Assembly: GCF_008831285.2 (NCBI RefSeq)
Contig: NC_045139.1
Span: 14,304,354-14,368,353 of the forward strand
Direction of reading: 5' to 3'
DNA from: Nymphaea colorata
Taxonomy: Eukaryota > Streptophyta > Magnoliopsida > Nymphaeales > Nymphaeaceae
DNA: 64,000 nt
Position 1 is the first letter of the stretch; the number at the start of each line of letters is the position of its first letter. The notes beneath the pieces were generated by a model, which was not told where the DNA came from, searched no databases, and saw only the letters and a program-made list of their open reading frames with translations. The position numbers were made by a program, and so were the translations under genes. Shown piece after piece: positions 41,212 to 64,000 of this stretch.

Positions 41212-41285
<74 letters not shown>

Positions 41286-44200
41286 GTGATGTGAGAGAGA
41301 GAGTTACCCGTGGTTAAGTAACAGGAGGTGCATGAACCCACAATGTTCATCATTCCAAAAGCGATCATTTCTTTATTGCCATCGATGTGGTAGTTCTTAA
41401 ACATAGCAAAGCTTCTGCCCACTGCAATTCCTTCCTGTAAAAATAAGCAAATGATGATACATGAGCAGGCCAATTTCTGTGGTCGGAGGGAAAGTGCTCT
41501 ATTTTGCTCCCAAGTAGGGAGATATGGGGCAGTTGGTGGCCTTAAGCCTGCTATACCAATCTTGAGGTGAAGCATTGCAAGTAATATAAAGTTCATTTCT
41601 CTTTTTGCTGTTCAATTAATATTTGATTGAGCAAAAATACTAAAAAGTAGCATTCAGTCTGTGGAAGCAAACATAATATAATACGTATGGGCACCTTGCA
41701 ACTTTAAATCCCGTAAAAAGGAGATCAGGATTTGGAGGTGGTGGAAAGATAAGGGACGACATTCCGTGACCCAACTTTCAGCCATATATCCAGATCCCAC
41801 CATTACAAGGTTCCATAAAGTCACTTGTCCGGATAAGTTGGGATAAGCTGTGATATTCTCTTTTGACTTTCTGATGGGCAGCACCTATGCCGGAGGCTAA
41901 ATTGCCATTTTAAATTCTGACGGAAGTGTTCACGGGGAAGAGACTTACGGCGAGAGCGATGACGCCGGTGACGATGCCGGTCTTGGCGGCGATGGCTAAG
42001 TACTGAGGCGAGAATGTCAGCTCCGTTAGGGAGGGAGGGTTCACTCCCCTTTTCAGGTGTCCAATCTGCACATCAGAACACGCAAAGGTCAAATTTTCCT
42101 TGTTTGTTTTTTAAATTTAATCTTAATTCAGGATATTTTAAAATTATTTCTTCAATAAAAAATAAAAAAATAAAAACAATATGAAGTTCACACGTGCCGA
42201 TCCCCATTATTGAGCAAACTGATAGAGTCACGATGAGTGGCTCTTCTATTCGTTTTATATAGGTCAACTTGAACAGTGGCTCGTAACATAATACATGTAA
42301 GATAAGTTTTCCGAAGCCGAAATATACGTTGTTATTCGTCTTCTTAAAAGAAAATAATTACTTTTACATGCCATAACTCTATAAGCTCTTTATAAACTAG
42401 AATACGTATTTACTTAACATATTCCACAAACTTATATTGCCATGTCTTGTATAGTAGAATACACATTAGTTTAATCTTTTTTATACTTTAGTGTCATTTT
42501 ATGAAATAAATAATGTCAATGGTTAAAACTATGCAAAATTTTACAAGGCAAAAACTCTAAATTTAAGCTAAATCATTTAACTTAAACATATTGTCCTTAG
42601 TAAATTTAATATGGAGAAACATTTAGAAACTCATCTGGGACAAATTAAAATATGCCTAGTCAAAAGAGTGTGACAAAAACATTTTGGAGTGCTCCATCTC
42701 ATGATTTTTCTCTCTCCTTTTAAATTTCTCAAAAGCCGGACATTTAATTTAAAGTGAAGCGGTTACCTTCACCTTGTTTATTGAAAAATGAAAAGCATAC
42801 TATTAAACAAAATAGGTTACATGTAGTCCTTTTAGTAACTCTCTCGTTTTACTTTCCCTACTGGAGTTGATGATCTTCCGTATGTGAAAGTAATTAATCT
42901 TCGAAACAGAACCACCCTACTTTATCTCTCTCTATCTTCTCCTTATAGGAACTCAATTTTCAAAGCTAGACCACCTTAATCTCTCCCTTTCTGATCTTTC
43001 TTTATCTATCTGAGCAGACGATCTTTAAGATACAGTTCCTTGAGTCTGGACTTCAATTTTTCTTTCTTTTCCCTCGTTAAGTTAATGGGCTTAATTTCAT
43101 ACATAAAAGCAATTAATTTGAAAGCTCAGAAAGTTCTGTCGCTATATCTCTCTCTCCCCCGCAGACACACACACATATGCACATGCAGATGCTCATGCAC
43201 CCACCACTTGGACGCCGTGCTTCTCGGCGTGAGTGAGATAGACGAGAAGGCTGCCGAGTACCACCGACGTCAGTGGCGCCGCTGCCGATACCCAGAAGAA
43301 CCTTGGCTGCCTCTTGCTCTGTTCATGCAGAAAACACAGTCAGCTTTCTATTCCCTACCTTGACCTTCTATCTTTCTTTCCCTCGTTCAATAACAAGAAC
43401 AATACACATAAACACAGAAGAAAAAAAGATTAGAAGAAACAACGAAGCCGTACTTCTCAGCGGCAAAAACTACTTGAAAAAAAAAAAATTAAAAGTAAAA
43501 GCCCCATAAGGTGGTACAGATTTGAAACACTTCCGAAGAGAAAACCGGAGCCGGAGCACTGTATTGACCAGTAACCAGCGGCAGTCCAACAGAAGTACAG
43601 ATTATTTGATATATCTGTCGCATATCCCGAAATTGGTAGGCCATAACACCATATAATAGCATTTTGGCTTTTTTATTTCTTGTTTATTGGCTTTTTTTTT
43701 TTTTTGCAAGTAAAGTTAAGAAGAACTTACAAAGTATCGAGTGAGGAGCAGGAAAAAGAGGAAGCAACAACCGAGCACGGCACTCTCCCATCTCCACTGC
43801 AGAAAGCAAAAACCAACAGCAAACAAACAACCGCTATTAATTACCGCTCCTCATCTGTCATTTCTCATCTACCAACAGCCCGTGAGCCAACTTATATGCT
43901 GACAAAATCCACTGATGCAAGGAACGAGAGAGAGAAAGCTTGCTTCTAGCTGATAAGCTAGAGGACTAGCTGGAACTGTTGGGGTTGCCATGAGTCCAGG
44001 CTCCTGCGAACTCTTTTGGAGGAGAGACACAGGAAGAGAGAGAGAGAGAGAGAGAAGAACCTGGTGTTCCTGGGAGAAGACGGAGCGCATGACGTCGACG
44101 AGGTCGGTGTGGGTGGTGAAGTGGTCAAGGCCGAGTATGCCCTTGAGCTGCTGGAGGCAAACCACCGTCGCCGCCCCTCCCATGAACCCCACGATGGTCG

Positions 44201-45323
44201 CGTGCGACAAGAAGTCCACGATGAAACCCAGCCTTTCGGGGGAAAAAAACCATGAAATTTAGTTAAGATCGATGATGTCGTCTAAGGAGGAAACGATTCT
44301 TTCTCTCTGACATCCCTACGCACCTGAGGAAGCCTAGTGCTGCCTGGAAAACTCCGGCGAAGAAGGTGGCGGTGAAGGCCAAATTTATATAAACACCTGG
44401 CTGCGCCGTTGCTGCCACCTCCTTCTCCAGCATAGACGCCAATAGCAGCGAAGCCACGGCCACGGTCCCCACTGCCAGATCCTTCGAGCTCCCCATCATG
44501 GCGTAGACCAATGGTGGGACGAAACTGGAATCTGAAAGCAAAATGAAAAAGTTAGATCCCGAAGAATGACCAAAATAATAAGAAAGAAAAAGCACCATTT
44601 TATTCCCTTCTCCTTGCTTTCATGGTAATGGTGATAGTCATGACGATACGTTGATGTTAATACGATAGCTAGTTATGGGTTAAGATCGACGAAAGCAGAT
44701 TAAGTAACGTATAGTAAGCTAAAAACTGATGGAATTAGGGGGAAAAAAAAAGTTGCCATGCACAATCGCAATGACGGTGATGAATCTGGTGATAGTAAAG
44801 ATTAATGTACGGATCGACCATGCGATGACGATGACGACATTATGGATGATTAATGTTCATATATATCATCGTGAAAAAACAAGTCAAATGACCAATGTTA
44901 CTTCAAAAATTAAAATCCTTGAGCTCTCAAAATGATGACGACGACGAGGGTACAGGTAACGAGGTGGTGACGTTATATGGATGAAACGTTGAAAATGGAC
45001 GCACATAGGCCGAGGATGGGGGGGAGGTTGGCGAGCTTGGCGTAGCTGATCCCTTGAGGGATGGCGAGACTGGCGATGGTGATTCCGGCAACGAGGTCAG
45101 ACTTAAAGAACCCAAGCGTGTAGCTCGGGCCCCACTCCAGGATGGGAAACAGGTACTGGAGAGCCAGCACCACCCTGCGTCCGGCAGGCTGACCCTTGAA
45201 TCGCCGGAGCGGGTCATCCGGGAAAAACGTCTCCTTCAACGACCCTGCCAGCGACCGGAAGAACGGCTCCGGAGGCGGCAAAGACACTCGATGCACGCAA
45301 TCTTCAAGGTTCGAGTTATCCAT
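38282..45323 (-). CDS. SULTR3: SULTR3-type sulfate transporter, 12 exons
   Basis: SLC26/SulP-family transporter of the plant SULTR3 group (SULTR3;1/3;2-like), several members of which mediate sulfate uptake into plastids. Exons: 45323-45005, 44531-44324, 44232-44061, 43796-43731, 43318-43205, 42065-41949, 41434-41308, 39983-39697, 39252-39062, 38960-38875, 38692-38616, 38512-38282. All 11 junctions keep phase, giving 664 residues, full length. Landmarks: GITIASLAIPQGISYAKLAN (exon 1), SHATIVGFMGGAATVV (exon 3), GNKEMIAFGMMNIVGS (exon 7), then a cytosolic STAS domain (about 508-640) with ILDMT and CIDTSGIS in exons 10-11. Intron 7 starts with GTAACT and carries a long (TA)n tract 25 nt after the donor. 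Exons 5-6 with neighbouring introns are duplicated at 59122-62547. The N-terminus matches the family, so the first ATG is used. Confidence 0.95.
41214..41282. repeat. long (TA)n microsatellite in SULTR3 intron 7
   Basis: About 69 bp of uninterrupted alternating TA, one of the longest in the window. On the gene strand it begins about 25 nt after the exon 7 donor site. Confidence 0.95.
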
Positions 45324-46576
45324 CTATTCGGAAAAACTCGTCCAGAAGCGTCCCTGCGGAAAAATTTCCGGTGGAGGTGGCGCTGGAGCTAGAACTGCAG
45401 GTGCAGGTGCTGTTGATGGCGGTGTGGTGGTGGGGAGGACGAAATCGGAGGATATAAAGGGGGAGATACGGGGGATTCTTGGCCTGGTGCTGCGTGGGAC
45501 CAAAAAGACGGCGAACCTCCACGCGTGTAAGGCGCACGTGATTCGGCCGATTTCAGGGCGTTCTGCGGCCGGATTAGTGGGTCCCACTCACCGTCCGGGA
45601 AGTTCTGCCTCCTTAGTCTATAGCTCGAAGAAAGTGGCCAGGCAGCTACTCGCAAGCTGCCACGTAGCAGATATCTTTGGGGATAGAAATACGACAAGTG
45701 GCATCCGAGACTGGTGGGTGGGCCCAAGGCGAGAGGGGCAGGTGGTAGAGTCGGATTGGTTTAATCACACGCTTTTGAACAACCCGGCGGGCGCCGGTTG
45801 GTCTAGGAATGACCGGAATTAGTTGGTATGCATGTAGCGCCGGTTCCTAGAGATTATTGCAGTTGATACTTATGTTGGCACCATGCGAGAATCTGGTTCA
45901 TGGTCGGCCTGACGCCATTCGCATGAGAGAAGCTTTCACCTGAAATTTGGCTTCAAGAATGTTGGCCTAACTCTCGCGCGATTAAGTTTTAGTAATCCCA
46001 TTCTAGGAATATCAAGGAAAGACATGCATTTTGGCCTGTCACTTGCTGCAAAGTGGTAGAAAACATTGTACAAGGTTGGCAGCCAGCTCTCTAACAATCA
46101 ACATTAGCAAGCTTTCACATACGTAGTTGAGTGCTTCCAAATCGATCGTTGGAAAAAAAAATTAAGAGAAACAGAAATTTAACATACATAATGGTATATT
46201 TGATAGTCTTAGATCTCAAATCCTTAGGCAGAATTAAAAAAAATCCATCTTGGCATTAGATTTCACCGTTATGAAAAAAATAAATTATTTCTAATATATT
46301 TTCCATTTATTTTCTAAAAGGTAATTTCTTAAATTATATTTTGGCCGCTTTGATTCCAGAATCCACATCCAACCTGCTGAAGGGTGAGCCTCCTACGTGC
46401 TTTTATTAAGCCACCAACAAAAGAAGGCAAATTATTTGATCCCGGACTCAATTTTTACAAAAGCGACATTTCCGTTTTGACAAAAGGAATGTTATTTTTG
46501 GAACAGTTCGTCAATATACACACTGCAACCCTATAAGCAGAAGCGGAGCTACAATGTAGCTGGTGTGGGCAATTAC
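45324..46576. other. SULTR3 upstream region
   Basis: GC-rich to about 45830, then AT-rich. A 'gatataaag' at 45451 is a weak TATA-like element in the wrong orientation for SULTR3. A long open frame on the plus strand is a GC shadow. At 46546-46576 'agcggagcta...ggtgtgggcaatta' resembles the left end of the hAT MITE at 55793, perhaps a remnant end. Confidence 0.5.
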
Positions 46577-47204
46577 CGAGTCGAGCTTTCCTAGCTCAAG
46601 CTCAACTCTTTTGTTTGATTCGATCGAGTTTATTTCTCAACTCCAAACTGATCTTTCTGATTCAATTGCCTGATTTCGGGTCAAAGTTAACCAGGCAAGT
46701 TGGAGTCCACTCGTTGAACATCCCCGTTTTTTGGTTTGGACTTGGTGGGCCTTATCTTCAAGCTTTCGTTTAATTAAGTGAAGGTTTATATCTGCACGAT
46801 TAGTCCACAGCGATTAATTGGAACCGAAATTTGCAGCAACGTCCACACGCTTCTTGAAAATGGTATATTCATTTGCTTATAGATGATGATAAGCTATATA
46901 TGAAATGATGGGTAGGAGATTTTTGATGGGTTGCTTGCCATATCCTCCAATGTAATAGTCACGAGCACAAGGAGCTTGCACCTCCAATATATATATATGT
47001 GTGTGTTGAGATTTTGCTTCTTGGGGTTCACGTTGCGTGTCTTGAGTCTGTGCTCTTATGTGGGTTATGCTCGCGTCTGCGTATCTTAAGTACCTACGTA
47101 CATATGTCCGCTTCCTTGGTGCGTTGAGATCTTAGTTGTCGCTGTTTGTTTCGTCACTGTGTTGAGATTTTGCAATCGTTTCAATCTTTCAAATCTCCCT
47201 CCCT

Positions 47205-47245
<41 letters not shown>

Positions 47246-48035
47246 GTGCAAGCTCCTTGTGCTCGTCACTGTCATTACATTGGAGGATATGGCAAGCAAC
47301 CCATCAAAATTCTCCTACCCATCATTTCATATATAGCTTATCATCATCTATAAGCATATAAGCAAATGAATATACCATTTTCAAAAAGCGTATAGACTAG
47401 GGGTGGGCATGGGGCCGGGCCGAGCCGGCTCGATAATATTGCCAGGCCGGGTACCGGGCCTGGCCACCAAAAATTAGGCTCGGCCCAGCCCGCTGTGAAG
47501 AGGGAGACGAGACTAGAAGGGAGATCCGGAGAGGGAGAGGGAACCAGAGAGGGAGACGGGAAAGGAGAGGGAGAGGGGGGTGCGAGAGGGGGACGGAGAG
47601 GGAGAGGGAAAAGGAGAGGGAGGGAGAGGGAAAAGGGAAAGGGAGCAGAGAGGGAGGGGAGCGAGCGCCGGAGGCTGCCCGACCGTCCTAGGGCGGGAGT
47701 CGGGCCGGGCCGGGCCGCCCTATCGGGCCCGGGCCCGGCCCGACGCCCAGGCCTAGTGTGGATGTTGCTGCAAATTTCGGTTCCAATTAATCGCAGTGGA
47801 CTAAACTAATCGTGCAGATATAAACCTTCACTTAATTAAACGAAAGCTTGAAGATAAGGCCCACCAAGTCCAAACCAAAAAACGGGGATGTTGAACGAGT
47901 GGACTCCAACTTGCCTGGTTAACTTTGACCCGAAATCAGGCAATTGAATCAGAAAGATCAGTTTGGAGTTGAGAAATAAACTCGATCGAATCAAACAAAA
48001 GAGTTGAGCTTTTGAGCTAGGAAAGCTCGACTCGG
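46577..48035. repeat. ~1.46-kb foldback: ~420-bp inverted repeat arms around a ~210-bp loop
   Basis: Left arm 46577-about 47000 and right arm about 47209-48035 are near-perfect reverse complements once the 358-bp MITE in the right arm is removed. Matching landmarks are 'ccccgttttttggtttggac' (left) with its complement near 47874, 'cgtttaattaagtgaaggtt' with its complement near 47825, and 'caaggagcttgcacctccaa' with its complement near 47240. The right arm has a small duplicated 'ataagcatataagc'. The loop (about 47001-47208) starts and ends with copies of 'gtgttgagattttgc' (47006 and 47159). No protein-coding content. It could be a foldback transposon or a local inverted duplication. Confidence 0.9.
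47398..47755. mobile_element. non-autonomous hAT MITE nested in the right foldback arm
   Basis: 358 bp with imperfect terminal inverted repeats: left TAGGGGTGGGCATGGGGC, right (complement) TAGGCCTGGGCGTCGGGC, followed by the shared CGGGC. Flanked by a diverged 8-bp target duplication, gtatagac (47390-47397) and gtgtggat (47756-47763). The left foldback arm keeps the uninterrupted site (complement reads gtgtggac), proving insertion. The interior is a long GA-rich run (about 47496-47665). It has no transposase. Confidence 0.88.
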
Positions 48036-48102
48036 TTGAACTCGTTTAAACCTGCAGTGATGGTATATGTAAAAAATGATCCACCATACGAGCGTACGCT
48101 TC

Positions 48103-48840
48103 GGACATTATTGTGATGGTCAGTGAAATCCACAGGATCATGAGCTTCAGGTATTCCTTCCATATTCGGCCTCAATGACTACGTCCGCTACTGCTATGAG
48201 CAAGCTCAATGTCCATTGACATCTTTTCCCGATATGAAAAGGAGAGAGAAGGCTTTATAATGAGGTTAAAGCACAACGTCCTGATGTTGACAGATAACAG
48301 TAACAGGGTCACTCTGAGCAGATGGGCCCTGATTAATTAGTTAAGCGGATGCCCGGGCAGGCCTACCGTGTCTTCGTAACTCGAAGAAACCATGCCTTGG
48401 GCGTGACTCTCAAAGTTCATGACTGTAACATGTTCTATGTTCACGTTCAAAGCTGCCCCATGCCCATGATGTAATCAACTAATCATATTCGTATTCATTA
48501 TGGCTTCCTGTGACTCCACATGCTCAGGTTATGCCATCCGATCGTTGTATCCAATTACATTTACATCAGATTGGATCTGCTTTTGAACCTGGAGCTTGCT
48601 TGTGTCCAGATCCGAGGTGTGCCTGCTCGCTATGTGATGCTAGATCCAGTTAAAACTGTGCAATTGTATAACTAAAGATAAGAAGAGAGGGGCTGATTTA
48701 CCACCTGCAGCCAACTGGTTCTCAACCCATCACTAGTAAAAGCCTTACCGCTTTTGTTCTGCACCAGCCTTTCTTCTTGTACACGAATCAATTTGGTTCA
48801 GATTAACTTTATGTTGCCGTTTTGGTTGTTTCCTTCTCAG
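48103..48840. repeat. duplicated spacer segment, copy B (partner at 63560-64000)
   Basis: Shares long near-identical stretches with 63560-64000 in the same orientation, e.g. 'cattattgtgatggtcagtg', 'gagcaagctcaatgtccatt', 'aactgtgcaattgtataact' and 'gttctgcaccagcctttctt'. This copy has about 320 bp (48283-48606) missing from the partner. Content unknown; the open frames in it are broken differently in the two copies. Confidence 0.88.
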
Positions 48841-48959
48841 TCATTCTAGCCTTCATATGCCTTTGTGTTGACTGCAGGTAGCAAATCAGCCCCTCTATTC
48901 TTGAAAATGGTATATTCAACCCTTACATCTCGGGAAAAGATGTCAATGGTATATTCATT

Positions 48960-49560
48960 TGCTTATAGATGAGCTAGCTTATAGCAGCAAGTTCATCACA
49001 AATAAACTTGAATCCAGTTATGTACTCAGTAATAGACTTATCTTGTTTTTGATAAGTCTGTAACTTCCTCTTCAATAGAAAATGTCTCTCTTTTGACTCA
49101 CGTACAAATGTTGTTGCTGTCTTTCACACTTTTGCTGAAGTCTTGTGTCCAATCATTAGACCCAACACCTCTTCAGACATAGATCTTGTAATCTAGCCTC
49201 GAAGCAATCGATCTGATTTCTTTCAGGCATTGAAATAAAGATTAAGATTGATGAAAGGTTCCACAATTTTAGTAATTTTAATGGTAGAACTTGGCATAGG
49301 AATAGTGCCATCAATAAACCCAAGAACATCATGGCTTTCTATGAGGCCAAGGATCTGAGTTTGTCAAAGCAGAAAAAAATTCTTATGGGTGAGCTTGATC
49401 GAGACAAAATTAGCAACATTCACATTTGAAGGGAAGGAGAACTTAGCTGATGATATTGCAGAGGACGATGCCCTTGAAGTAGCAAGAAAGAAATCAACAA
49501 GAGAAGGTCCTGGAAAAGCTTTAACCCAGTTGTGATACCATAAAAAATGTTCAAGAAGAG
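48960..49560 (-). mobile_element. Ty1/Copia gag relic with primer-binding site
   Basis: The minus strand reads as a Copia-type gag remnant in order: PBS-like TGGTATCACAACTGGGTT (49540-49523, close to the tRNA-Met PBS), then LIESHDVLGFIDGTIP, KKSDRLLRG, SMSEEVLGLMIGHKTSAKV, KRKLQTYQKQDKSITEY and FKFICDEL. Three positions where the family has Trp are stop codons. No pol domains follow; the element stops where the duplicated spacer begins. The sequence upstream of the PBS, to about 49983, may be the remaining LTR (possible ends TGTCAG and GAACA), which is inference. Confidence 0.8.
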
Positions 49561-49778
49561 AAATTTTATGTTGTTCAGATATTTTCCTACATCCACAGTA
49601 CTCAGTCATCAAAACCATGATGAGTCTTCTTTCATTGTCTTAGATTTTATACAAGAGGTTGGTCGATTACAATAAGTTTTTGAGTTTCCTTCAACCTTAA
49701 TTAGGGATTTTGTTTCCATAATAATTTCTGCATGCATTCATTGCCAGAACCACCTACCTGATTTGTAGCTGCTTGTGG

Positions 49779-49980
49779 TGTCAGATCCTTCTTTCCATAA
49801 TTCATATATGGGAATTGTGATCATGCATTGTCTTCTTTTTCAAGTTTCTCATGTAATATTTTCTTTCCAACCTTAGTTGCTATGATTGTGGGCAGGTGTT
49901 ATTTCTTTCCAAAGTTGACACATGGTGAGCTTCAAGGGCACAACTCCCCATGTATGAATTATGGAAAGAAGGATCTGACA
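49779..49980. repeat. 41-bp inverted repeat hairpin
   Basis: Arm 49779-49819 (tgtcagatccttctttccat...) pairs with 49939-49980 (...atggaaagaaggatctgaca) with only a few mismatches around a 119-nt loop. It lies within the putative Copia LTR and could be part of it, or a small inserted element. Confidence 0.8.
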
Positions 49981-49983
49981 CAC

Positions 49984-52033
49984 ACACAACTATAGGTATA
50001 CAAGATTGACACAATAAATACATGCAAAATGCAGAAATTATTATTAGGGAAACAAAATCTTTTAAATAAGACGGACATTAAGTTTAGGCATGGGGCCTGA
50101 ACCCGAAAAAACTAGCCCATACCCTCGACCCGATCTAAAGAAGTGTGTGTATAATGTCTTTCTATTGAAAAAATAATCAGAGGAGTCGATCTTCCGTTTG
50201 AGGAAGGGAGAAGCCCACCACCTTATACCGTGTGATTGCATGATGCATAGGGTAGTTGAGGCTTGCCCAGCTGTCCAATTATTATTAGATCAAATTATAT
50301 TATTTTGTTTGATCAAACACATAACATGGAGAGTGATAACATGAATTTATATTAATTAGACAAAGTGTATCTACTTCGCTTCTTCTCCGTTAATGCCAGT
50401 AATGTATATGAGAGTCTCATCAATTATTGTAGACGCTAATGAACTCAACATGTATTATTAGTTATGTTACTCAAATCATGGGATATTTTCAAAATGTTGA
50501 AGTATTCAAATAATTTAAAGGACAAAGACTAATTTTCACCTTCGTGCATTAATGGTAGGGTAGTAATCCCTTTCGGCATTATTGCTTCGTCACCAATATG
50601 ATGGTGAAGAGGAGTATCTTGAACAAAACTGTTAGGCTTAAAGCTACAATGGAAATATTATTTAACCAACGTAGTCATTTCAATATTTTTAGTCTTTCTT
50701 CTTTATTTGTATTGATGTGACAGATTGGAGGCTCGCCAATTAATCAACTAAGAGATGGCGTCATATTTTACACTTTTATGGACAGAGTACGCCACTGAGT
50801 CGTGAGAGATTGACGATCGGCCAACCAAGATGCGGCGTCGACGAGGTTCATGGAAAAAAATGTGGTCAAGTGAGGAGGCGTCTATTCGTCGACTTTTATG
50901 GAGGTCAGGCCAAATGTATTTAAGAAAGCCACGTATAATTAAGAACTAATTTAGGGATTGACTGCCCTTGCCATTGCGCTTTCATTAAAAAAGAAAACAA
51001 GTTGCTTTTGTTCAATTGAGCATGTGTGGCGTTCTTCTTGGAAGGGTTGGTTTGAATGGAATGGGAACCTAACAAATTAATTGAAGATCGAAAGAATCCT
51101 TTCTTGCCTATTGACTATTTAACTATAAGTGGAATTCAACAATTAATAACATTTACGGGGTGTTTGGTTGACACTTCAAGACCAACCAGGTTTTTGGACA
51201 AACACAGTTTTCACAAAACCTGATTTTGTAAAAAAAAAAAAAGTAAAAAATTTGGTTCCCTTTAAGTTATTCAAAAACATGCGTCTCCCAAACCTGTAGG
51301 ACTCCATGCTTTTGGGTAAGTACGTAACTCATGACCCAGTTTGATGGCGATCTGACTTGGGATGTAATTCTTGAGTCAATTTCAATATATATATTTTGCC
51401 AGTATCCACCAACGTCTGCTCCACTTTCCTCATTTCTGCCATCCTTTTTCTTCTTCTTCAAGATGAGATTAGAAAGCTGAGCTTATTTACCCACTAATGA
51501 ACGAACAGATATATATATATACATATGTCGCATTCATTTGTGATGGATATATGTGCCGTTTCTTCCTTTTTCCAGATTTCAAAAAATGTCTGAATATATG
51601 TCCTGAAGTTTTGCTTACTTTGGAATGGAAAAAGGCACCACCATCAATTATTTGAGGATACTTTACTAGCATGGTTCTAAGGTAAATTCATAAAACATTA
51701 ACAGCAAACGACTTCGAGGCACGCACTTGTGAGTAAATGTTTCATACAATTGCTAACATCAACAAGAGTAAGTGCACTGATCTTTATCGGATATTATTGA
51801 TCTAAACTTAATTTGTATTATTTATATTGCACTTTTGTTGGAACTTCTATAAATTAATCATCATTCCAATTATGCATATGATATTTGAAAAAAGTATCAA
51901 GCGCAACTATATACTAATACCAAAAGCTGATGGCCCAATGTGGGATGACATTAGTGATATACCTACAACTTGGTTAGTCAAAGGAAAAGAAAAATTGTGG
52001 AGATGTATGTTGGTGCTGATAGGCAAGTATCCA
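49984..52033. other. repeat-rich spacer
   Basis: No supported gene. A 'taggcatggggcctgaaccc' at about 50083 resembles the end of the hAT MITE at 47398 but has no partner. A 'ggggtgtttggttgac' at about 51157 resembles a Tourist MITE end. The open stretch at 51827-52084 is unrecognised. Confidence 0.45.
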
Positions 52034-52230
52034 TTAATTCAAATATGTCTCACTTTTATACTAAGCTCAGACCCTTTTGTTTAGCATATCCCAACCCACC
52101 CCTAGCAGTTTCAACTCCGGATCAAAACAATTAATTCAAGTATGTCCTACTTTTATACTAACCCCAGACCCTTTTATCTGACAGATCTCAACCCATCCCT
52201 AGCAGTTTCAACTCCAGCTCCGAAAAAGAT
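52034..52230. repeat. 97-bp tandem duplication
   Basis: Two adjacent imperfect copies at a 97-bp offset share 'acttttatacta', 'cagacccttttrt' and 'cctagcagtttcaactcc'. Non-coding. Confidence 0.8.
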
Positions 52231-53760: not shown

Positions 53761-53809
<49 letters not shown>

Positions 53810-55792
53810 TCGGAGAGAAAGTGATTGCACTTTTGTCTGTGGCGGTGGTGGAAGGGGTCAACTGAATGTGTATCTGCCTGTGTATGTGGAAAAGGAGAAG
53901 GGTGCAGCTGGTGACGGTGCAACTGCAAGTCTGCAACCTCCACACGGTATAAGGAGAGTGCCAAGGCTGAGAAAGAGAGAGAGAAACAGATGACCGGTAT
54001 GTGGCTTTGTAAAGTTTCAGACGTTATCATCGATGTTTGAAGGACATGATTAGATTAGTATACTATATTTCTCAAGCGAAAATTTTTGAATGAAGTACTG
54101 AACAATTTTGGTAGTGGCCCTAGTGAGAAGAATCGGTGGATTTGCTCATGAATAAGAGAAATAGCTTCATTGAACAGATCTTGTATATCGATGGTGCTTC
54201 CTTCTATGATCAGGAAAATGCTGTAGCGTAAAAGGCATGAATATCCTGTAAAATCTGCAACGTCCACCGGTTCCTAATGCTCAGGCCCTGAGAAACTTTT
54301 CAAAGGATTTACTCCTTTAGTTTAACTTTAAAATAACCACGAAACATCGAATTGGCTTCTTCCTGTCGCTTACATTATTCAAAACTTAAAAGCATGCAAT
54401 TGATTCTTGCCATGATTCTACATGTGCAATGAATCACATTAAAATCATCGATTCTTGTTCCGTTATGAAAGTGATTCTCATTATAATAGAAGTCATGTGT
54501 TTCATGTACCTCAGTTATTAGTGATTGAACAGATATTTGGTGCATCACAGCGCTCCAATTGCAATTTGTCAGACAGAGAGGTAGACGCATGCTGTAATGA
54601 TCGCTCCATTTCCTAGACAGCAGCAAGTGCAGAAAACCATTTGTCTGCAAATGATTGAACATCTTTTCGAAAATTCTTTTGGCCTATAACTCATCATGTT
54701 GAAAAGGAAGTACGTGATATAGGACAGGGCCGCTGCCACTTTTGAAGGCCATCGACCCAACTCGATCATTTCAATAAAAATCTTGAATCACTGCATGATG
54801 TCTATGAAACCATGTATGTTTTAATTAGTTAACGATATATATGGACTAAGAAATCATAGACACAACCATGGTTCGTCCACCTGCGATTGTTCATCTGATT
54901 GTCGTGTATGAATAAGCTCCATTATTTTTGTTGTTTAAAGTGAAATATGACCTTCAATTAGTTGCTTGGGAAATGGAATTGCGGCCAGTGGAAGTCAAGC
55001 AAACCCAGAAATAAGTTATAATTAACCCACCTTTTGACTACTTCTGGATTAAAAATGGCCAGAAAGCTCGAAAGAATTATGGATTTGCTCAGAATCTTCA
55101 ATCTCAGGGGATCAACTTTTCTTTTTCTTCCAACTAAAAAACGACAAAAAAGGAACCGGATCAAAATCGTTTGTGACTTGGAACTGGCTGTTGATTAATT
55201 TCTATCTGAACTAGATCGAGTATCTGAAAATTATGAGGAATCTGTTGAGCTTATAAAGTGAGAGAGAAGCGCCTATCTACTTCAACGGCCATTGTTCAGG
55301 TCGAACTCAGATGAAGATCCGATCCACCCACTTGCTTCCCCTGTGACATTATGAGGTTGTATGGATTAAATAATTGGACCTTTTTATTATTTGTAGTTGT
55401 TGTGGCCCCAAGAAACGTGCTTTTTTCTCTTGTTTTGGTTCTTTCTTTCCTGAAAAAGGTTCAGGGATCAAAAAGCTAATCATACAAGATGGGGGAAAAA
55501 GGAGGAAAAGTGAGACAGAGAGAGTAGTTCAACTTTCATCTGTTGAAATATTATGAGGAACGAAAGCAGATTCTTCCTTTGGAAAGGGCTTTCAAAGCTT
55601 TTATGATACAAATAGATCTCAGAAGACCACATGAATGGCCGCCTCTTGTCGTTCTTTTGATAAGAAGCATCGAGAGAATGCACCGTCTCTGTCTGTGGAA
55701 TAAGTGCCACAAAATGTGGGAAATGAATTATTTTGTAATCAATGAAGATTACACACACATATACATATAGCGAGAGAGAGAATGGGTTCAAG
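52231..55792. other. AT-rich spacer with compound microsatellite
   Basis: No gene supported. At 53759-53808 a (TG)n run passes directly into (AG)n; long minus-strand open frames around it are products of this simple repeat. The rest has no recognisable coding or repeat structure. Confidence 0.45.
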
Positions 55793-55954
55793 CAGTGGTG
55801 GAGCCAGTTGGTGTGGGCAAATGCCCACATCAGCACACTAAAGTTACATATAAAAACTTTATTAATTTTTCTGTTTTTACACATGAATGTCTCTTAAAAA
55901 TTGAAATTTAAACTTACAGTGCCACTTAGTCAGAAATTTGTGGTTCCACCACTA
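55793..55954. mobile_element. 162-bp hAT MITE
   Basis: Terminal inverted repeats CAGTGGTGGAGCCA (left) and TAGTGGTGGAACCA (right, complement) are flanked by an 8-bp target duplication, ggttcaag (55785-55792) and ggttcaaa (55955-55962). No coding capacity. The interior 'ggtgtgggcaaatgcccac' is a short palindrome shared in part with 46562-46576. Confidence 0.88.
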
Positions 55955-58076
55955 GGTTCAAAGGAGTTCCGAGAGTGAAATATGGGGCCACCTGGAAAGG
56001 AAAGCAAGCACCTAATGAGAATGGAGTTGAAAGAAGAAAACTCTACTCTTTTTGGGAGTGCGTGCTTTGATGTGGTATGGAACCAAATTCGAGAAAAGTT
56101 AGGCCTTCAACATCGACCTCTCCCCACAGAACTCCTTCTCACCACCACCTCCATACAGTACTCACACACTCCAGATTCCACACATTGTAATCTCTCTCTC
56201 CATCTCTCTTTCTCTTTCTCTGTCCCTGTCCCTGTCACGGAACCAACCAATTCTTCTTCCTTCCCCGGTCACATTAATCGACATGTTGTTTTCCCGGACT
56301 TCCTCCAGTGAGTCGTGCCTCTGGTCAATGTATTGGTCGCTTCAGTCCAAAACAAAATTTTCTTGCTCTTCCGTGTCATCCAACGCACATGTATCTGCTG
56401 TAGGCCATTAATTGTATGGAGAAATTAAACGATAACCGTGCTCCTTGACGATGAATTGATCGAATAATGACAAATCTAGTTAAATGTTTGTATATAATTG
56501 ATTTATTAACGATGATGAAGGCCGAACCGACCAATACCACAACCCACAATGTTTTATAAACAGGAAAGATAACGTGTTGCTTGTGAGATGGCAGGATTAG
56601 TATTAAAGAGATACCTACGATAAGATTGAATTTTCCACTTACGATGGTATTATGATGATGAATTGATGCGGGGATTAACTTGCTGTGTTATCAATGGTTG
56701 ACACCCGTATCATGGGGAGGAGCTCAGGTCATGTGATTTGGCTGTTCGAAGGATTTTCTTTGAACCGGACGCAGATTTTGTGGTCATAACTGCACCAACA
56801 AAATAAAATCTCAGCAACATTCTAGAGGTGGCCTTGTATGCCAAGTGGTGCGAAAACTTCACTGTGTATATGCTGTCTGCCATGTGGATCATAATGGGCT
56901 TCAATCTTATCATCTCCCATCTTGCGCCACAGGGAATTGGCTGCCGAAAGGAGATCTAAAGCGAAAAAAGGAAAGAGAGAAGCTTTGCGATTGGGTCGAT
57001 TTGATTTCAGGAAGACCTTCATCCGAATCCAAACTGTTTGCCTTCCTCAGTCACTATCATAATAACCACGAAAAGTTTATTAAGGTCAATTGAATTAAAT
57101 GAACCAGTGATTCTCCTGATCGAACAGGAACCCAATGGTGGTTGTTCCATTGATGTGGACTAACCACTTAGTTTTCGCTCAAAAGAGGACATGAACAACG
57201 TTGTTTCCAATTCTTTTGCATCATTATGTATGCAAACCAGCTTCTTTTTCTTAATTAAGCGTAAGGAGCGATTATTTAGTGAACACTATATATCTGTATA
57301 TATTTAGGAACAATAATTTAGCGCTTGTTCTCAAACGACAACTTGCAAGAACATTTGTCCATGCATGGCTTCACGTGCAATAGTTTGAAACTAGAAAATT
57401 TTAAAGAAAGGAATATGCAGGCGTATATGAACTGGAAAATCTAAGAGATGAACAACAAAACAAAGTTGAAAAAGCAATGGAAGGATAAGAGATTCTTAGA
57501 CAGAAACACGGATAGCTAGCTAGACACACATGTCCTCTAGCAGTTTGAATTATTAAAGAGATGCATGATTGCAACGTTGAAGTATGTTTCTTCTTCTTGT
57601 GTTTTTGCGGTAGCTGATGATCCTATGCTCCTTCGCACCCTCGCATACGGCAGCGGAAAAGACGTTTTCCTTCATTTCTATCTGTAGTCGTCTGTTTGGA
57701 ATTTTCATCAACTCATAAAATGCCAAATTACGATACATGGCACTTGCCCATTCCTCACAAGTCACAAGTTTCAGTTTAGTTCTTACGCGTATGACAGAAA
57801 GGGAGAGAGGGAGTCAAATGTGTACGTCTGCTTGTGAGTCTGTGTCTGTACTTATATATATGGGAATTGAAATTGAATGACTGCCGGATGTTGCTTAACG
57901 TTGAAAATTTTAAAAACATCATTAACAATCTTTAACACAGGGCCATTAGCGGCGGTTTATGGTATGGCAACAATTTATGGTTCTTTCAATACTGCTTGAT
58001 ATGGTTTTAGCAACGAGTTTAAATTTTTTAGCCGGCCGCTGAATCAATCTCTCTCTCTTTATATATATATATAAAC
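55955..58076. other. spacer, no supported gene
   Basis: CT-rich run at about 56190-56230. A promoter-like set on the minus strand (ATATATAAG near 57855, then a leader-like stretch) precedes an open stretch at 57553-57765. That stretch has no suitable ATG and no known protein resemblance. Confidence 0.4.
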
Positions 58077-58124
58077 GTAGACCTACCAAGAATATATATA
58101 TATATATATTCTTGGTAAGTCTAC
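58077..58124. repeat. 48-bp near-perfect palindrome with (AT)n centre
   Basis: GTAGACCTACCAAGAAT, an AT run, then ATTCTTGGTAAGTCTAC: arms of about 17 nt plus the self-complementary AT core, with one mismatch. It can form a cruciform or hairpin. Confidence 0.9.
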
Positions 58125-58728
58125 CTTAAAACATGTTAGTAGGGTAGGAAAGTTGTGTTGTTATGTGCATGGCAGCACCTGCCCCAAGCGGGATGCTCAT
58201 AAATGCATTTCTCGGGAGACAGGCTTCTGTATTGTATGACATACAATGACTTGTCATACTCACTGTCGCCTCATCGGTATTATAAGCTTGTAGGTGAATG
58301 CATCCTTTACAACCCCGCGAACTTAGAGTAGCACCGGCGAGACGCTGCCCTGCAAGAGGACACTGCCTGGATTCTGTACTCAAGTCCAGCCGTTTACTTA
58401 GACAGGGTGGGTTGCTGGCTGTTTCTTGAGATCGAACAGGGATCTATTCCCGGGCAAAAATAAACAGTAAAAAACTTTTACTTCTTACCACAGACGAATG
58501 AATCAAAGTTGCCCTAAATGTATGTACGCGTTTGGTTTGTCACACAAGAAAAGATAAATTTTGCTACATTGGATATGCCGTCTCATTTGCACCCCTTATT
58601 TTCTAAGTGATTAATGATGCTTGGTGTGTACGTGTTTGCGTGAAGTGGATCAGCTGGGCAAGAGGAATAAATGGCAACTTTTTTCTACCTTTTAAAAGGT
58701 GACCTCACAAAGTGGGGAATCTCCCCGG
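58125..58728. other. spacer, no supported gene
   Basis: A cysteine-containing open stretch on the minus strand (58126-58383) lacks an ATG at its start and resembles no family I know. Confidence 0.4.
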
Positions 58729-58925
58729 AGGCAAAGAATGACCACGACATGAGCATTTTTAAAAGAAACACCTGTTCTATTCTTTCTCCCTGAGGCAAAG
58801 AATGACCACGACATGAGCATTTTTAAAAGAAACACCTGTTCTATTCTTTCTCCCTGAGGCAAAGAAAGACCATGACATGAGCATTTTCACAATCTCAAAA
58901 GGGAAAAGAAGCACCTGTTCTTTTT
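58729..58925. repeat. 64-bp minisatellite, three copies
   Basis: Copies start at 58729, 58793 and 58857 (period 64). The first two are identical over nearly their whole length (aggcaaagaatgaccacgac...); the third is diverged and interrupted by an insertion (acaatctcaaaaggg). It lies about 200 bp left of the SULTR3 duplication breakpoint. Confidence 0.92.
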
Positions 58926-60370
58926 TTTCCGGGGATATCTATCGCTTGGCAGAAAGCCAAAGCTCTACCCAATTTCTTATCTCTTCGGGATACGAAGCAT
59001 CCAGTTATTATGTGCCTTACCTTAGTTCTGCATATGGGATGTCTGAGAACGGGGCATAAATTTGATATGCAGTTAATGGGATTAGAACCTAAATCTGAAC
59101 GATGAGATTAAACCCAGAACCGGTCGGAGGGAAAGTGCTTTATTTTGCTCCCAAGTAGGGATCTATGGGGCGGTTGGTGGCCATAAGCCTGTTATGCCAA
59201 TCTTGAGGTGAAGCATTGAAAGTAATAAAGAGTTAATTTCTCTTTTTATTGTTCAATTAATATTTGAAGTAAGAAAAAGAAGATTGAACAAAAATACTAA
59301 AAAGTAGTATTCAGCCTGTGGAAGCAAACATAATATAATACTTATGGGCACCACTTTGGTCGCTTGCAACTTTAAATCCCGTAAAAAGGAGTTCAGGATT
59401 TGGAGATGGTGGACGGATAAGGGACGACATTCCGTGACCCAACTTTCAGCCATATATTCAAATCCCATTGTAAGGTTCCATAAAGCCACTTGTCCGGATA
59501 AGTTGGGATAAACTGAGATATTCTCATTTGACTTTCTGATGGGCAGCACCTATGCCGGAGGCTAAATTGCCATTTTAAATTCTGACGGAAGTGTTCACAC
59601 TTCACAGGGAAGAGACTTCCGGCGAGAGCGATGACGCCGGTGACGATGCCGGTCTTGGCGGCGATGGCTAAGTACTGAGGCGAGAACGTTAGCTCCGTTA
59701 GGGAGGGAGGGCTCACTCCCCTTTTCAGGTGTTAATCAGAACACGCAAAGGTCAAGTTTTCCTTGTTTATTTTTTAAATTTTAATCTTAATTCAGGATAT
59801 TTTAAACTTATTTCTTCAATAAAAAAATATAAAGTTCACACATGCGGATCTCCATTAGTGAGAAACCGATAAGAGTCACGATGAGTGGTTCTTCTCTTCG
59901 TTTTGTGTAGGTTAACTTTGGACAATGGCTTGTAACATAGTACATATAAGTTAAGTTTTTCAAAGCCAAAAATATACGTTGTTATTTGCCTTCTTTAAAG
60001 AAAATAATTACTTTTACATGTCATAACTTTATAAGCTATTAATGAATTAGAATATGTATTTACTTAACATATTCCACAAACTTATATTGCCATGTCATGT
60101 ATTGTAGAAGACATATATAGTTTAATCTTTTTTGTACTTTAATGTCATTTTATGAAATAAATAATGTGAATGGCTAAAACTATGCAAAATTTTATAAGGC
60201 AAAAACTCCAAGTTTAAGCTAAATCATTTAACTTAAACATATTGTCCTTAGTAAATTTACTTTGGAGAAACATTTAGAAACTCATATCGGACAAATTAAA
60301 ATATGCCTAGTCAAAAGAGTGTGACAAAAACATTTTGGAGTGCTCGATCTCAAGATTTTTCTCTTTCCTT

Positions 60371-60481
60371 CTATGTCACCAAGATGCGAGGTGCGGGTGC
60401 AGGTACGACACATTTCAAAAAATTATGGTGCGGCAATAGTATTTTTTATTATTATTATTAATTTATTATAGTAACATATTA

Positions 60482-60530
<49 letters not shown>

Positions 60531-61353
60531 AATAGAATGAAATTTACAGAAATTTATTTTTTAGAATAGTGAAAGTGAATGGTGTTTTTAAAATTTTTTA
60601 AAATTATTTAGGCATATATGTTTATTGAAGGATGTCTCACTATTTTAAAAATATATGTAAAAGGATGGGGTGGAATGAAAATTTTCATTCCCATAGGGGG
60701 TAAGGACCCGAGGTGGGTTCCTCTTACCTCTTCCTCTTTGTCTCCCTTTTCCCTTTTTCGTTTCCCTCCCTTTTAGTTGTCCTTTCATTTTGTAGGTGAG
60801 TATTAGATGTAGGGAAGAAGAAAGGTGGAGGAAGGAGAAGCGGCGGCAGTGGGAGCAGCGGCGGTTAGAGTAACTAGGGTTTTTTTTTCTCTCCTATCTG
60901 TTTTCCCCTTCCTTCTCACCCTGTCTCGCCCGAGCTTTGTCTGCACTCTCTTCCTCCCACACTTTTCGCTCGCCCTCTCTTCATCTCGCCTTTAGTCCCC
61001 CTCAGTGCCCTCACCTTTGCTCTCCTTGTTCCCCCAAAGCCTGTCGCCCCTCTCCCTCTATCCTGAGCTTTCGAGTCGTCCCTCTTCCTCTGTCCTGAGG
61101 TCTCTCTCTGTGTTCCCTTTCTATCTCTTTCACTCTGGCAGGTAAGCTCTTATGCCATCTCTTCCGCAGTCCCTCTCCTCTCCCTACCGCCCTTTTTCCC
61201 GCACACTCTCTCTCTCCCTACTGCCATGTATCCCTACTGGTGCAGTTTGGGTGCGACCGTTTGAGCTGGTGCGGTTTTGATGCGAATCTTAGTCGCACCC
61301 GCATTGCGTCGACGCGGGTGCGGGTCCATTTTTGCCGCACCATGGCGACATAG
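60371..61353. mobile_element. 983-bp TIR element (hAT-like) inserted in the SULTR3 copy
   Basis: Ends CTATGTCACCAAGATGCG and, complemented, CTATGTCGCCATGGTGCG, flanked by an 8-bp duplication (ctttcctt 60363-60370, ctctcctt 61354-61361). The parental intron has a single ctctcctt at 42712-42719, an empty site. Inside are (TA)n and (GA)n runs (60481-60530) and a CT-rich block; no transposase is recognised. An 8-bp duplication fits hAT, but the ends are not a textbook hAT sequence. Confidence 0.82.
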
Positions 61354-61583
61354 CTCTCCTTTAGAAATTTTGAAAAGCCGTACATTTAATTTAAAGTGAA
61401 GCGGTTACCTATTCACCTTGTTTATTGAAAAATGAAAAGCATACTATTAAACAAAATAGGTTATATGTAGTCCTTTTAGTAATTCTCTCGTTTCACTTTA
61501 CCTGCTGGAGTTGATGATCTTTTGTATATGAAAGTAATTAATCTTCGAAACAAAACCAACTTACTTTCTCACTCTTTATCTTA

Positions 61584-62057
61584 GGGCCTGTGTGGTTGGA
61601 AGGAAATGGAGGGATTCAGCAATCTCTCCTGTGTTTGGTTGGCTAATTAGAAAGGAGGGAAAGGAAGGGAAAGAAAGAAAGTCTGTTTGGATGGGATGGG
61701 AGGGAAAGAAAAGGAAAGGAAAGGAAATGATTGTATAGTGTAAATTCAATCCCTTCCAAATCGGACGGATTGGGAGGGAAAGGAAAGGGAGTAAGTACAA
61801 AAGTGTTGACTGCCCACAATACCCCTCCACGTTTTTTTTCTCCCTGCCTCTCAACCTTTTGACTATTGAGGGTATTATTATAAATTGTATTGTTTCCTTT
61901 TCATTCCATTCACTTTTATCCAAACAAGCCTTTATAATACCTCTTTCCATTCCATTCCATTCCCTTCCCTTCCCTTTCTCTTCCCTTCCCTTTCCATTCC
62001 TTTCCCTCTCTTTCCCTCCATCCCTTTCCCTCCCTTTCCCGCCAACCAAACAGGGCG
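61584..62057. mobile_element. 474-bp Tourist/PIF-Harbinger-type MITE inserted in the SULTR3 copy
   Basis: Ends GGGCCTGTGTGGTTGG and, complemented, CGCCCTGTTTGGTTGG, flanked by the 3-bp target TTA (61581-61583 and 62058-62060). The left half is GA-rich and the right half CT-rich, so the element folds back on itself. The parental intron at about 42937 lacks it. Confidence 0.85.
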
Positions 62058-62601
62058 TTACTCCTTGTATGAACTCAATCTTCAAAGCTAAACCACCTTA
62101 ATCTCTCCCTTTCTGCAGACGATCTTTAAGATACCAGTTCCTTGAGTCTGGACGTCAATCTTTCTTTCTTTTCCCTGGTTAATCTAATGGAATTAATTTC
62201 ATACATGAAAGCAATTAGTTTGAAAGCTCAGACAGTTTTGTCACTATATCTTTCTCTCGCCCGCAGACACACACACATATGCACATGCAGATGCACCCAC
62301 CACTTGGACGCCGTGCTTCTCGGCGTGAGTGAGATAGACGAGAAGGCTGCCGAGTACCACCGACGTCAGTGGCGCCGCTGCCAATACCCAGAAGAACCTT
62401 GGCCGCCTCTTGCTCTGTTCATGCAGAAAACACAGTCAGCTTTCTATTCCCAAACTCGACCTTCGATCTTTCTTTCCCTCGTTCAATAACAAGAACAATA
62501 CACATAAACACCGAAGAACAAAAGATTAAAAGAAACAAAGAAGCCGCATTTGATATTAGCAGCAGGCGCCCACAAGGCCCTCCCCTAGGACCTCCACAAC
62601 A

Positions 62602-62886
62602 CTAACCCTGGGTTCTACAGTAGGGGCAATCTGAATGAAAGCTCAGCCATGGGCGCAGGCACTCCGGGTGGTATCTGTGGAGGCATGGAAGATGCATGAC
62701 CGTCTGGTGCAAGTGGAAGACATCCAAGCAAACCGGGCAGACCTCCGTCTCCGAGCTGAGTCGGTCCGATACGGCCGTCAGGCAGAAACCATTATTAGCG
62801 GCCGAGCACACAGTGACGGTGGGTTCTGATCTCCTATTTGTTGTAGACCCGGACCCGGACATGGTCCCGCGACCCCAACTAAACAT
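62602..62886 (-). CDS. small RING-H2 finger protein, putative E3 ubiquitin ligase
   Basis: 94-residue intronless frame starting at an ATG. It has a low-complexity Gly/Ser/Thr N-terminus and a complete C-terminal RING-H2 finger: C50, C53, C68, H70, H73, C76, C87, C90 (C-X2-C-X14-C-X1-H-X2-H-X2-C-X10-C-X2-C). RING-H2 proteins recruit E2 enzymes for ubiquitin transfer. There is no membrane segment, so it is unlike ATL proteins, and it is shorter than most RHA types. It begins just outside the SULTR3 duplication breakpoint, where the source locus has SULTR3 exons 1-4 instead. Whether it is an expressed gene or the last exon or fragment of a larger one is open; all eight zinc ligands are intact. 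Confidence 0.75.
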   Translation of the reverse strand: MFSWGRGTMSGSGSTTNRRSEPTVTVCSAANNGFCLTAVSDRLSSETEVCPVCLDVFHLHQTVMHLPCLHRYHPECLRPWLSFHSDCPYCRTQG

Positions 62887-63559
62887 TCCATTCCATCTGC
62901 GTTTGCTACAGCAAAGAAAATCAAATCATCGGTCGCTTCCCACTTTACATAAAATTCCAACGTGATGCTCAATAGCAAATTTGTAGCAAACGTGCGGCAC
63001 GTATATGGAAATTCGTGAAGGTAAGGTCAGGTCCGCTTCGAGACTGTCATGCTTTTGAGGGAAAAAAAAAAAAAGAAAGGCCCACAGCAAAAACTAATCT
63101 TGATTCTAATAAAAGATATGTTAACATTAACGAAATATCCTTTATAAAAACTAATCACCCCCCAGCCAATGGAAAATTTTCCATTTTTTTAAAATGGGTA
63201 TGCATTTTTAAACTTTATGAGCAAATATTGAACAACTTTTTGGATTTTTTAAAAATATTTTGGCGGTTTCTCAAAGAAGATACGAAATCAAGGTTGCTGT
63301 TCACAATTTTGCAGAAAGCGAGAGAGATAGGGGAAACAATGTACTAGTATACCATCACAATATACTAGTATATATAAATCATCAGCAGATCATATCATCG
63401 GATGCATGTGCGAGAGAGAGAGAGAGAGAATGGACTCCCCTTCCCGGCAACAAAGCCCAGCGACCCAAGAAGTTTCAGGCCTCTTGGATGTCGACCATGT
63501 CTCCTTCTCCGAGCCGTGCCGCCATTGCGTCACTAAGAAGCGCCATTGCCTGCACACTT
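62887..63559. other. RING gene upstream region and spacer
   Basis: AT-rich at 63060-63300 with no exon supported. A short (GA)n run is at 63412-63430. An open stretch on both strands at 63406-63726 crosses into the duplicated segment and is unrecognised. Confidence 0.45.
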
Positions 63560-64000
63560 CCGACATTATTGTGATGGTCAGTGAAATTCACAGGATCATG
63601 AGCTTCAGGTTTTCCTTCCATATTCGGCCTATCTGCCTCAATGACTACGTCCGCCACTGCTATGAGCAAGCTCAATGTCCATTGACATCTTTTCCCGAGA
63701 TGAAAAGGAGAGAGAAGGCTTTATAATGAGGTTAAAGCACAACGTCCGGATGTGTCCAGATCCGAGGTGTGCCTGCTCGCTATGTGATGCTGGATCCAGT
63801 TAAAACTGTGCAATTGTATAACTAGAGATAAGAAGAGAGGGGATGATTTACTACCTGCAGCCAACTGGTTCTCAACCCATCACTAGTAAAAGCCTTACCG
63901 CTTTTGTTCTGCACCAGCCTTTCTTCTTGTACACGAATCAACGTTTTCGGCAATTTCATTTGGTTCAGATTAACTTTATGTTGCCGTTTTGGTTGTTTCC
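63560..64000. repeat. duplicated spacer segment, copy B' (partner at 48103-48840)
   Basis: Near-identical to 48103-48282 and 48607-48838, lacking the 320 bp between them and with two small extra pieces ('tatctgc' near 63630 and about 18 bp near 63942). It continues to the window edge. Confidence 0.88.

Follow-up and report, generated by a model that had tools for sequence, protein, structure and literature searches.

The window analysed here is a stretch of 64,000 nucleotides of Nymphaea colorata DNA that holds a predicted SULTR-type gene for a sulfate/phosphate-type transporter and, starting inside that gene, a large tandem repeat (Table 1). Self-alignment of the window, extended leftward by 40 kb and rightward by 90 kb, resolves two units of 17,641 bp and 14,973 bp, the second running from 59122 to 74094 with its final 10 kb beyond the window end. 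The units stand head to tail on the same strand and adjoin directly, and the 194 kb examined contain not a single N.

Table 1. Features of the duplicated locus, in window positions (C2 is the contig that carries the window).
Feature	Position	Strand	Remarks
Unit 1	41481..59121	.	left edge lies in SULTR intron 6, exon 7 following 46 bp downstream
Unit 2, part in the window	59122..64000	.	runs on to the equivalent of 74094 (C2:14378447)
Unit junction	59121..59122	.	unit 1 end ...CCCAGAACC joined directly to unit 2 start GGTCGGAGGG...
SULTR-type transporter gene (predicted), whole in copy 1	38282..45323	-	exons 1-6 read; 3' end approximate
Exon 1	45005-45323	-	copy 1 gene
Exon 2	44324-44531	-	copy 1 gene
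Exon 3	44061-44232	-	copy 1 gene
Exon 4	43731-43796	-	copy 1 gene
Exon 5	43208-43318	-	copy 1 gene
Exon 6	41949-42065	-	copy 1 gene
Exon 7 acceptor	41434	-	copy 1 gene
Unit 1 segment absent from unit 2	43451..48095	.	SULTR exons 1-4, promoter, foldback
Foldback, unit 1 only	46575..48036	.	arms match each other
Unit 1 305 bp, absent from unit 2	48296..48600	.	TGT, 3-bp microhomology at the join (by eye)
Unit 1 164 bp, absent from unit 2	50443..50606	.	either lost from unit 2 or gained in unit 1
Low-divergence tract	52597..53964	.	14/1350 sites differ, against 570/9922 other non-exon sites
Second low-divergence tract	54716..55465	.	8/750 sites differ; includes a 336-bp identical run
Exon 6 relic and flanks, unit 2	59607..59748	-	acceptor removed by 9-bp deletion; donor now GG instead of GT
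Probable insertion in unit 2	60374..61353	.	980 bp; inverted ends CTATGTC.CC / GG.GACATAG
Probable insertion in unit 2	61583..62060	.	about 480 bp; TTA-flanked, ends GGGCCTGTGTGGTTGG / CCAACCAAACAGGGCG
Exon 5 relic, unit 2	62291..62431	-	splice sites kept; 111 bp with 2 substitutions, each of which alters an amino acid
Patchwork in unit 2	62547..63553	.	in the place of unit 1 43451-48095
RING-H2 fragment in patch	62609..63051	-	92% identical to C2:14437157-14437609
Patch stretch	63362..63553	+	five matches at C2:19.02-19.07 Mb, on the same contig at a distance of about 4.7 Mb

The six exons read in the copy 1 gene have GT/AG splice sites; the 3' exons show up only as Pfam matches and open frames. 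The best solved-structure match of the protein encoded by exons 1-6 is a SULTR-like phosphorus distribution transporter (Os06g0143700, E 2.7e-122). Pfam Sulfate_transp is found in several exons and a STAS match stays below the cut-off (16.3 of 22.6 bits), and by these matches the gene is predicted to be a SULTR-type transporter, putatively of the SULTR3 group (SPDT).

Within the window, self-BLAST pairs 41481-42722 with 59122-60373, 42712-42938 with 61354-61582, 42939-43450 with 62061-62546, 48096-48295 with 63554-63761 and 48601-48833 with 63751-64000. These five matches keep order and strand at 88-92% identity (E 1.6e-80 to 0), as expected from the initial annotation, which had reported repeated blocks in the same order and orientation; the structure proves larger and cleaner than first claimed. 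Extending the self-alignment 90 kb rightward, beyond the 20 kb suggested at that time, shows one tandem structure in which the match continues to 74094, with 48601-50442 corresponding to 63751-65578, 50607-58849 to 65582-73893 and 58785-59121 to 73749-74094. The bulk of the unit homology therefore joins 50.6-59.1 kb to 65.6-74.1 kb, the latter half lying outside the window. A single duplication of at least 7 kb, its copies offset by 15-18 kb, had been proposed; this is the best reading of the collinear, abutting units, with a true unit of 17.6 kb. The copied part was said to comprise SULTR introns and downstream spacer, both of which are included, but exons 5 and 6 were copied as well.

Genome searches with the two blocks originally noted, A and B, ignored very common words, so that copy counts are lower bounds. 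They returned, for A, the two unit copies and one 67-bp match at 79%, and, for B, the two unit copies, one partial relative (90%) on contig C4 and short pieces. Neither block is thus a high-copy dispersed repeat at these lower-bound counts, and for B, where this had been the condition named as fatal to a shared origin, the idea was discarded. Pfam scans covered the minus strand of 36401-46402 and, in six frames, 48097-57799, 59122-64000 and a 5-kb stretch at window-equivalent 74001-79000. The last gave no match, and 59122-64000 gave matches only for the relic of the SULTR gene and for the RING domain. In 48097-57799 there was a copia gag relic beside part of B (Retrotran_gag_2, E 1.8e-5, its 24.7 bits falling short of the cut-off of 27), and nothing else appeared up to E 0.1. 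Across 38000-64000 every Rfam family stayed below its gathering score, and no duplicated complete gene was recognised in the Pfam-scanned parts.

We consider it probable, at roughly 0.82, that 41481-59121 and 59122-74094 represent a single collinear tandem duplication with later decay in copy 2. Since the left break lies inside the gene and the promoter side lies within the unit, copy 1 keeps the whole gene and copy 2 receives a fragment. At the outset this fragment would have consisted of the promoter and exons 1-6, without the 3' end. Exons 5 and 6 persist as relics, the former with a weak Sulfate_transp match (E 0.0051, below cut-off). Freed from constraint, copy 2 would have acquired two insertions, lost 305 bp and the exon 6 splice sites, and had exons 1-4 and the promoter replaced by a patch of 1 kb.

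The gaps in the pairing of block A are probably insertions into copy 2. The longer looks like a DNA element with terminal inverted repeats; the shorter is presumably a Tourist/PIF-Harbinger-like MITE, to go by the end and target-site pattern of such elements. The 305 bp were probably lost from unit 2, because the C4 relative carries them. The initial annotation had the segment containing exons 1-4, promoter and foldback lost or replaced by the RING-H2 region. Exons 1-4 and the promoter are indeed gone, with a RING-H2 stretch instead; the foldback was probably never present in copy 2. Between the foldback arms the difference is 0.011 (outer) and 0.027 (inner), less than the roughly 0.05 between units, and the foldback therefore appears younger than the duplication. 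Among the 40 of 350 candidates that were scored, the only genome matches listed for the arms are each other, and the segment 47397-47756 in the foldback is a high-copy repeat.

The mean difference between units is 4.9%, and divergence along the continuous unit ranges from 0.004 to 0.106 across windows. It was expected that a single event would leave A and B equally diverged. Nominally this fails, the K2P values being 0.077±0.007 for A and 0.052±0.005 for B, a gap of about three standard errors, as would follow had the two been duplicated separately at different times. Windows within block C alone, however, span 0.004-0.092, and because a single block varies as much, the gap is no argument for separate events. 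A, B and C are moreover collinear in one unit that directly abuts its copy, and separate duplication is strongly disfavoured, to the point of being very improbable indeed. The divergence is strongly overdispersed, and the units are identical over stretches of 336, 299 and 280 bp, all longer than the 255 bp that permutation gives as the 99.9% limit. The larger low-divergence tract (52597-53964) has no Pfam or Rfam match. Gene conversion or constraint likely lies behind this unevenness, either through later homogenisation of parts of the units or through constrained non-coding sequence there. Divergence does not rise significantly near ends and heterologies (533 of 5000 rotations were equally extreme), and gene conversion is therefore unproven, this gradient having been set aside as proof of it.

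As the sequence reads today, the junction has no bases in common with the left flank (...TTTCTGT) or the right flank (AAAATGTC...), and the 1-kb flanks of the unit edges share only (AT)n and words of 10-12 bases. Unequal crossing-over between flanking repeats (NAHR) is consequently unsupported and was rejected. Divergence of 5-8% could have obliterated a short microhomology there. A junction of this kind could also arise if the assembly had placed two diverged haplotypes of one locus end to end, and uneven divergence would be expected of alleles, too. Yet there is no N to mark a scaffold gap where the units meet, a 4.9% mean with windows up to 0.106 would be very high for alleles of one plant, and one haplotype would have to lack the start of the SULTR gene; we regard such a false duplication as quite improbable. 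Under the tandem duplication that we prefer, one event would have copied 41481-59121 head to tail, two breaks, one within SULTR intron 6 and the other at a distance of 17.6 kb, being joined without homology. Sister or homologous chromatids may have undergone end joining, or replication may have restarted; both the end joining and the single origin are inferred.

In the patch the host sequence is gone and sequence related to other loci stands in its place. For its first 62 bp, at the left join, no relative was found. There follows the RING-H2 fragment, with an open reading frame of 94 aa (62602-62886), whose relative lies about 70 kb rightward in reverse orientation (window-equivalent 132804-133256). 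The final stretch, 63362-63553, resembles a 5' UTR with the opening codons of a gene; its relatives are repeated gene 5' ends, and it ends abruptly at the patch edge, at the point where the frame goes on in two of them. The right join has at most 2-3 bases of microhomology, by eye. The RING coding part diverges from the distal copy by only 0.03; in codons 1-90, 8 bases have changed, with 4 codons amino-acid changing and 2 silent. From this small count there is no sign of constraint on the copy, and purifying selection was dismissed. The RING upstream part differs from its nearest relative by 0.14 and the exon-type stretch from its relatives by 0.12-0.15. The figures of 0.12-0.15 concern non-coding or family parts. 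They equal or exceed the inter-unit difference, so the patch is perhaps as old as the duplication, or its donors were other loci; with nearest relatives so diverged, donor identity is uncertain.

Most simply, the patch would be the product of break repair with copied filler. A different history would have one replication event make both copy and patch by template switching, the fork skipping SULTR exons 1-4, visiting the RING-H2 locus and the repeated gene 5' ends, and returning. The non-coding divergence of the patch is not below the 0.04-0.08 between units, and hence the patch need not postdate the duplication. But the RING coding part differs by so little, the donors may be loci other than the nearest relatives, the clock is made unreliable by selection and gene conversion, and a two-step history fits equally well. 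We think template switching unlikely, and it is a shade more doubtful that a single such episode left both a tandem copy without the SULTR start and a new 94-aa RING-H2 reading frame. Slightly less probable again is a mobile element with captured gene fragments, of the Pack-MULE or Helitron type. Such an element might unite fragments whose relatives lie at two or more unrelated loci, as the patch does, but inspection of the edges by eye found neither conserved or inverted ends nor a target-site duplication or AT insertion site. Host sequence of up to 4.6 kb is absent at precisely this place, and the genome search returned no second full-length copy.

For repair of the kind favoured here there is precedent. 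Wicker et al. (2010) reportedly described gap patching by filler DNA where double-strand breaks in plants had been repaired. Like plant filler DNA, the patch has pieces of other loci, gene fragments included, where host sequence is missing; here the pieces are related to at least two loci. At such sites in plants, both insertions that come with larger deletions and filler of 1-36 bp are described (PMC3289645). Next to SULTR-type transporters (SULTR3 group, SPDT), copy 1 is alike by protein match and copy 2 is a broken fragment.

The locus offers a well-resolved case of plant segment duplication followed by erosion, with exact joins, a boundary-split gene kept in one copy and a repair-like patch with traceable relatives. 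Its uneven divergence warns against using short blocks for dating duplications. Known mechanisms are left unchanged by this 17.6-kb duplication. Compared with plant copy-number tandem duplications that have non-homologous junctions, nothing essential differs, save that no complete duplicated gene was recognised in the parts scanned: long homology at the join is absent there and here, and both are head to tail, with a boundary in a gene and one copy decaying. As a genome change the duplication is of an ordinary kind; the detail in which it can be followed is unusually clean.

Part of the SULTR-type gene and neighbouring sequence lie in two abutting units (table below), which became apparent when flanking sequence, 40 kb leftward and 90 kb rightward, was joined for comparison to the window (C2:14304354-14368353 in a searched genome of 407.8 Mb and 783 contigs). 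Self-comparison of the window recovered the two block pairs (A and B) that the initial annotation had read as one collinear tandem duplication, in identical order and strand, and the flanks added a third (C), in which homology runs past the window end. By piece, the units are 87-92% identical in BLAST comparison, gaps counted.

Features of the duplicated locus (window positions)
Feature	Unit 1	Unit 2	Remarks
Unit	41481-59121	59122-74094	abutting
Pair A	41481-43450	59122-62546
Pair B	from 48096	from 63554
Pair C	50607-59121	65582-74094
SULTR-type gene, exons 1-6	copy 1		minus strand; one open frame, 331 aa
Foldback	46575-48036
High-copy GC-rich repeat	47397-47756		inside foldback
copia gag relic	48956-49237		minus strand; degenerate; Pfam Retrotran_gag_2, below cut-off
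Low-divergence tract	52597-53964		14/1350 differ
Low-divergence tract	54716-55465		8/750 differ
Tandem repeat	58724-58887		near unit end; 64-bp unit x2.6, 97%
Extra stretch, 980 bp		60374-61353	inverted ends; read as insertion
Extra stretch, ~480 bp		61583-62060	TTA-flanked; read as insertion
Patch		62547-63553

The left edge reads TTTCTGT/GGTCGG, the middle CAGAACC/GGTCGG and the right CAGATCC/AAAATG. Comparison of the three found no bases common to the alternative edges today. In the 1-kb flanks the only common sequence is (AT)n together with 10- to 12-base words. On the simplest reading of these sequences the join would have been homology-free; a few shared bases may since have been lost.

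Since the left edge falls in intron 6 of the SULTR-type gene, 46 bp upstream of exon 7, only exons 1-6 could be duplicated. Among solved structures, the protein of these exons in copy 1, with GT/AG splice sites picked by eye, matches best (E 2.7e-122) a chain, Os06g0143700, that carries the name SULTR-like phosphorus distribution transporter. Pfam detects Sulfate_transp in the 3' exons, which are placed approximately from Pfam matches and open frames, and a STAS match scoring under cut-off. Copy 2 keeps exon 5 with two substitutions, both amino-acid changing, while its exon 6 has lost the splice acceptor to a 9-bp deletion and has a donor changed from GT to GG. Unit 2 is also without 48296-48600, retained by a relative on contig C4, and without 50443-50606, a gap in the unit comparison that reflects either loss in unit 2 or gain in unit 1. 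From the pattern of its ends and target site, we take the shorter extra stretch to be Tourist/PIF-like.

Differing divergence of pairs A and B had been named in the initial annotation as evidence against a single duplication. The pairs do differ (K2P 0.077+-0.007 over 1926 sites for A and 0.052+-0.005 over 2004 for B; C, 0.044+-0.002 over 8316), but the comparison cannot be cleanly used in this way, because divergence is uneven along the units. Values in windows of at most 500 sites span 0.004-0.106, with a variance/mean of 5.5 for 500-site windows (reached in 0 of 5000 permutations). The units also share runs without a single difference, of 336, 299 and 280 bp, all longer than the 255 bp that permutation gives as the 99.9% limit. 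Outside the two low-divergence tracts, which were chosen once the profile had been seen, 570 of 9922 non-exon sites differ. No Pfam or Rfam match accounting for either tract was found; gene conversion between units and constrained non-coding sequence both fit. Divergence declines with distance from ends and heterologies, though not significantly (533 of 5000 rotations as extreme).

At the place of 43451-48095 in unit 1, unit 2 carries a patch of different sequence. Its RING-H2 fragment (Pfam zf-RING_2, E 2.9e-10) shares 92% identity with a locus that lies in reverse orientation some 70 kb to the right. A second piece, which can be read as the 5' end of a gene, stops where the frame of two relatives (L028a, L029a) goes on; it has matches at five places within C2:19.02-19.07 Mb. 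That region holds at least five related stretches reading as gene 5' ends; L028a and L029a have an open frame starting MDSP with CRHCVTKKRHCLHGCC, and the remaining frames are broken within the translated piece. Between the two pieces, 63103-63336 has a weak match on contig C12 (67%), and the genome search found no relative for the first 62 bp of the patch and a few other stretches.

Divergence from the nearest relatives is 0.03 for the RING coding piece, 0.14 for its upstream piece, 0.069 for the whole RING piece and 0.12-0.15 for the 5'-end piece. As the non-coding values are not below those between units, the patch could, judged from sequence, be as old as the duplication. Copy and patch may thus have arisen in one template-switching event, and duplication and patch as two steps are equally compatible with these values.

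The foldback, previously placed within the stretch lost from the copy, probably arose later. Its arms differ by 0.011+-0.006 and 0.027+-0.014, less than the units do, so that it would postdate the duplication, in unit 1, and the loss from unit 2 would be about 3.2 kb, not 4.6 kb; such low values could also result if the arms had been homogenised. Among the genome matches listed, for which 40 of 350 candidates were scored, such that an unscored relative is possible, the arms match only each other, and the foldback has the appearance of a recent inverted duplication of local origin, not a dispersed foldback element. The repeat inside it has at least 119 matches among the same 40 of 350 candidates. 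It recurs on contig C279 at roughly 10-kb spacing, which suggests a large tandem array.

Plant break-repair sites, as described in one account, include insertions with larger deletions, and also short filler (PMC3289645). Unless the assembly holds a false duplication, this locus is of an ordinary kind: tandem segmental duplication with decay and repair-like patching.
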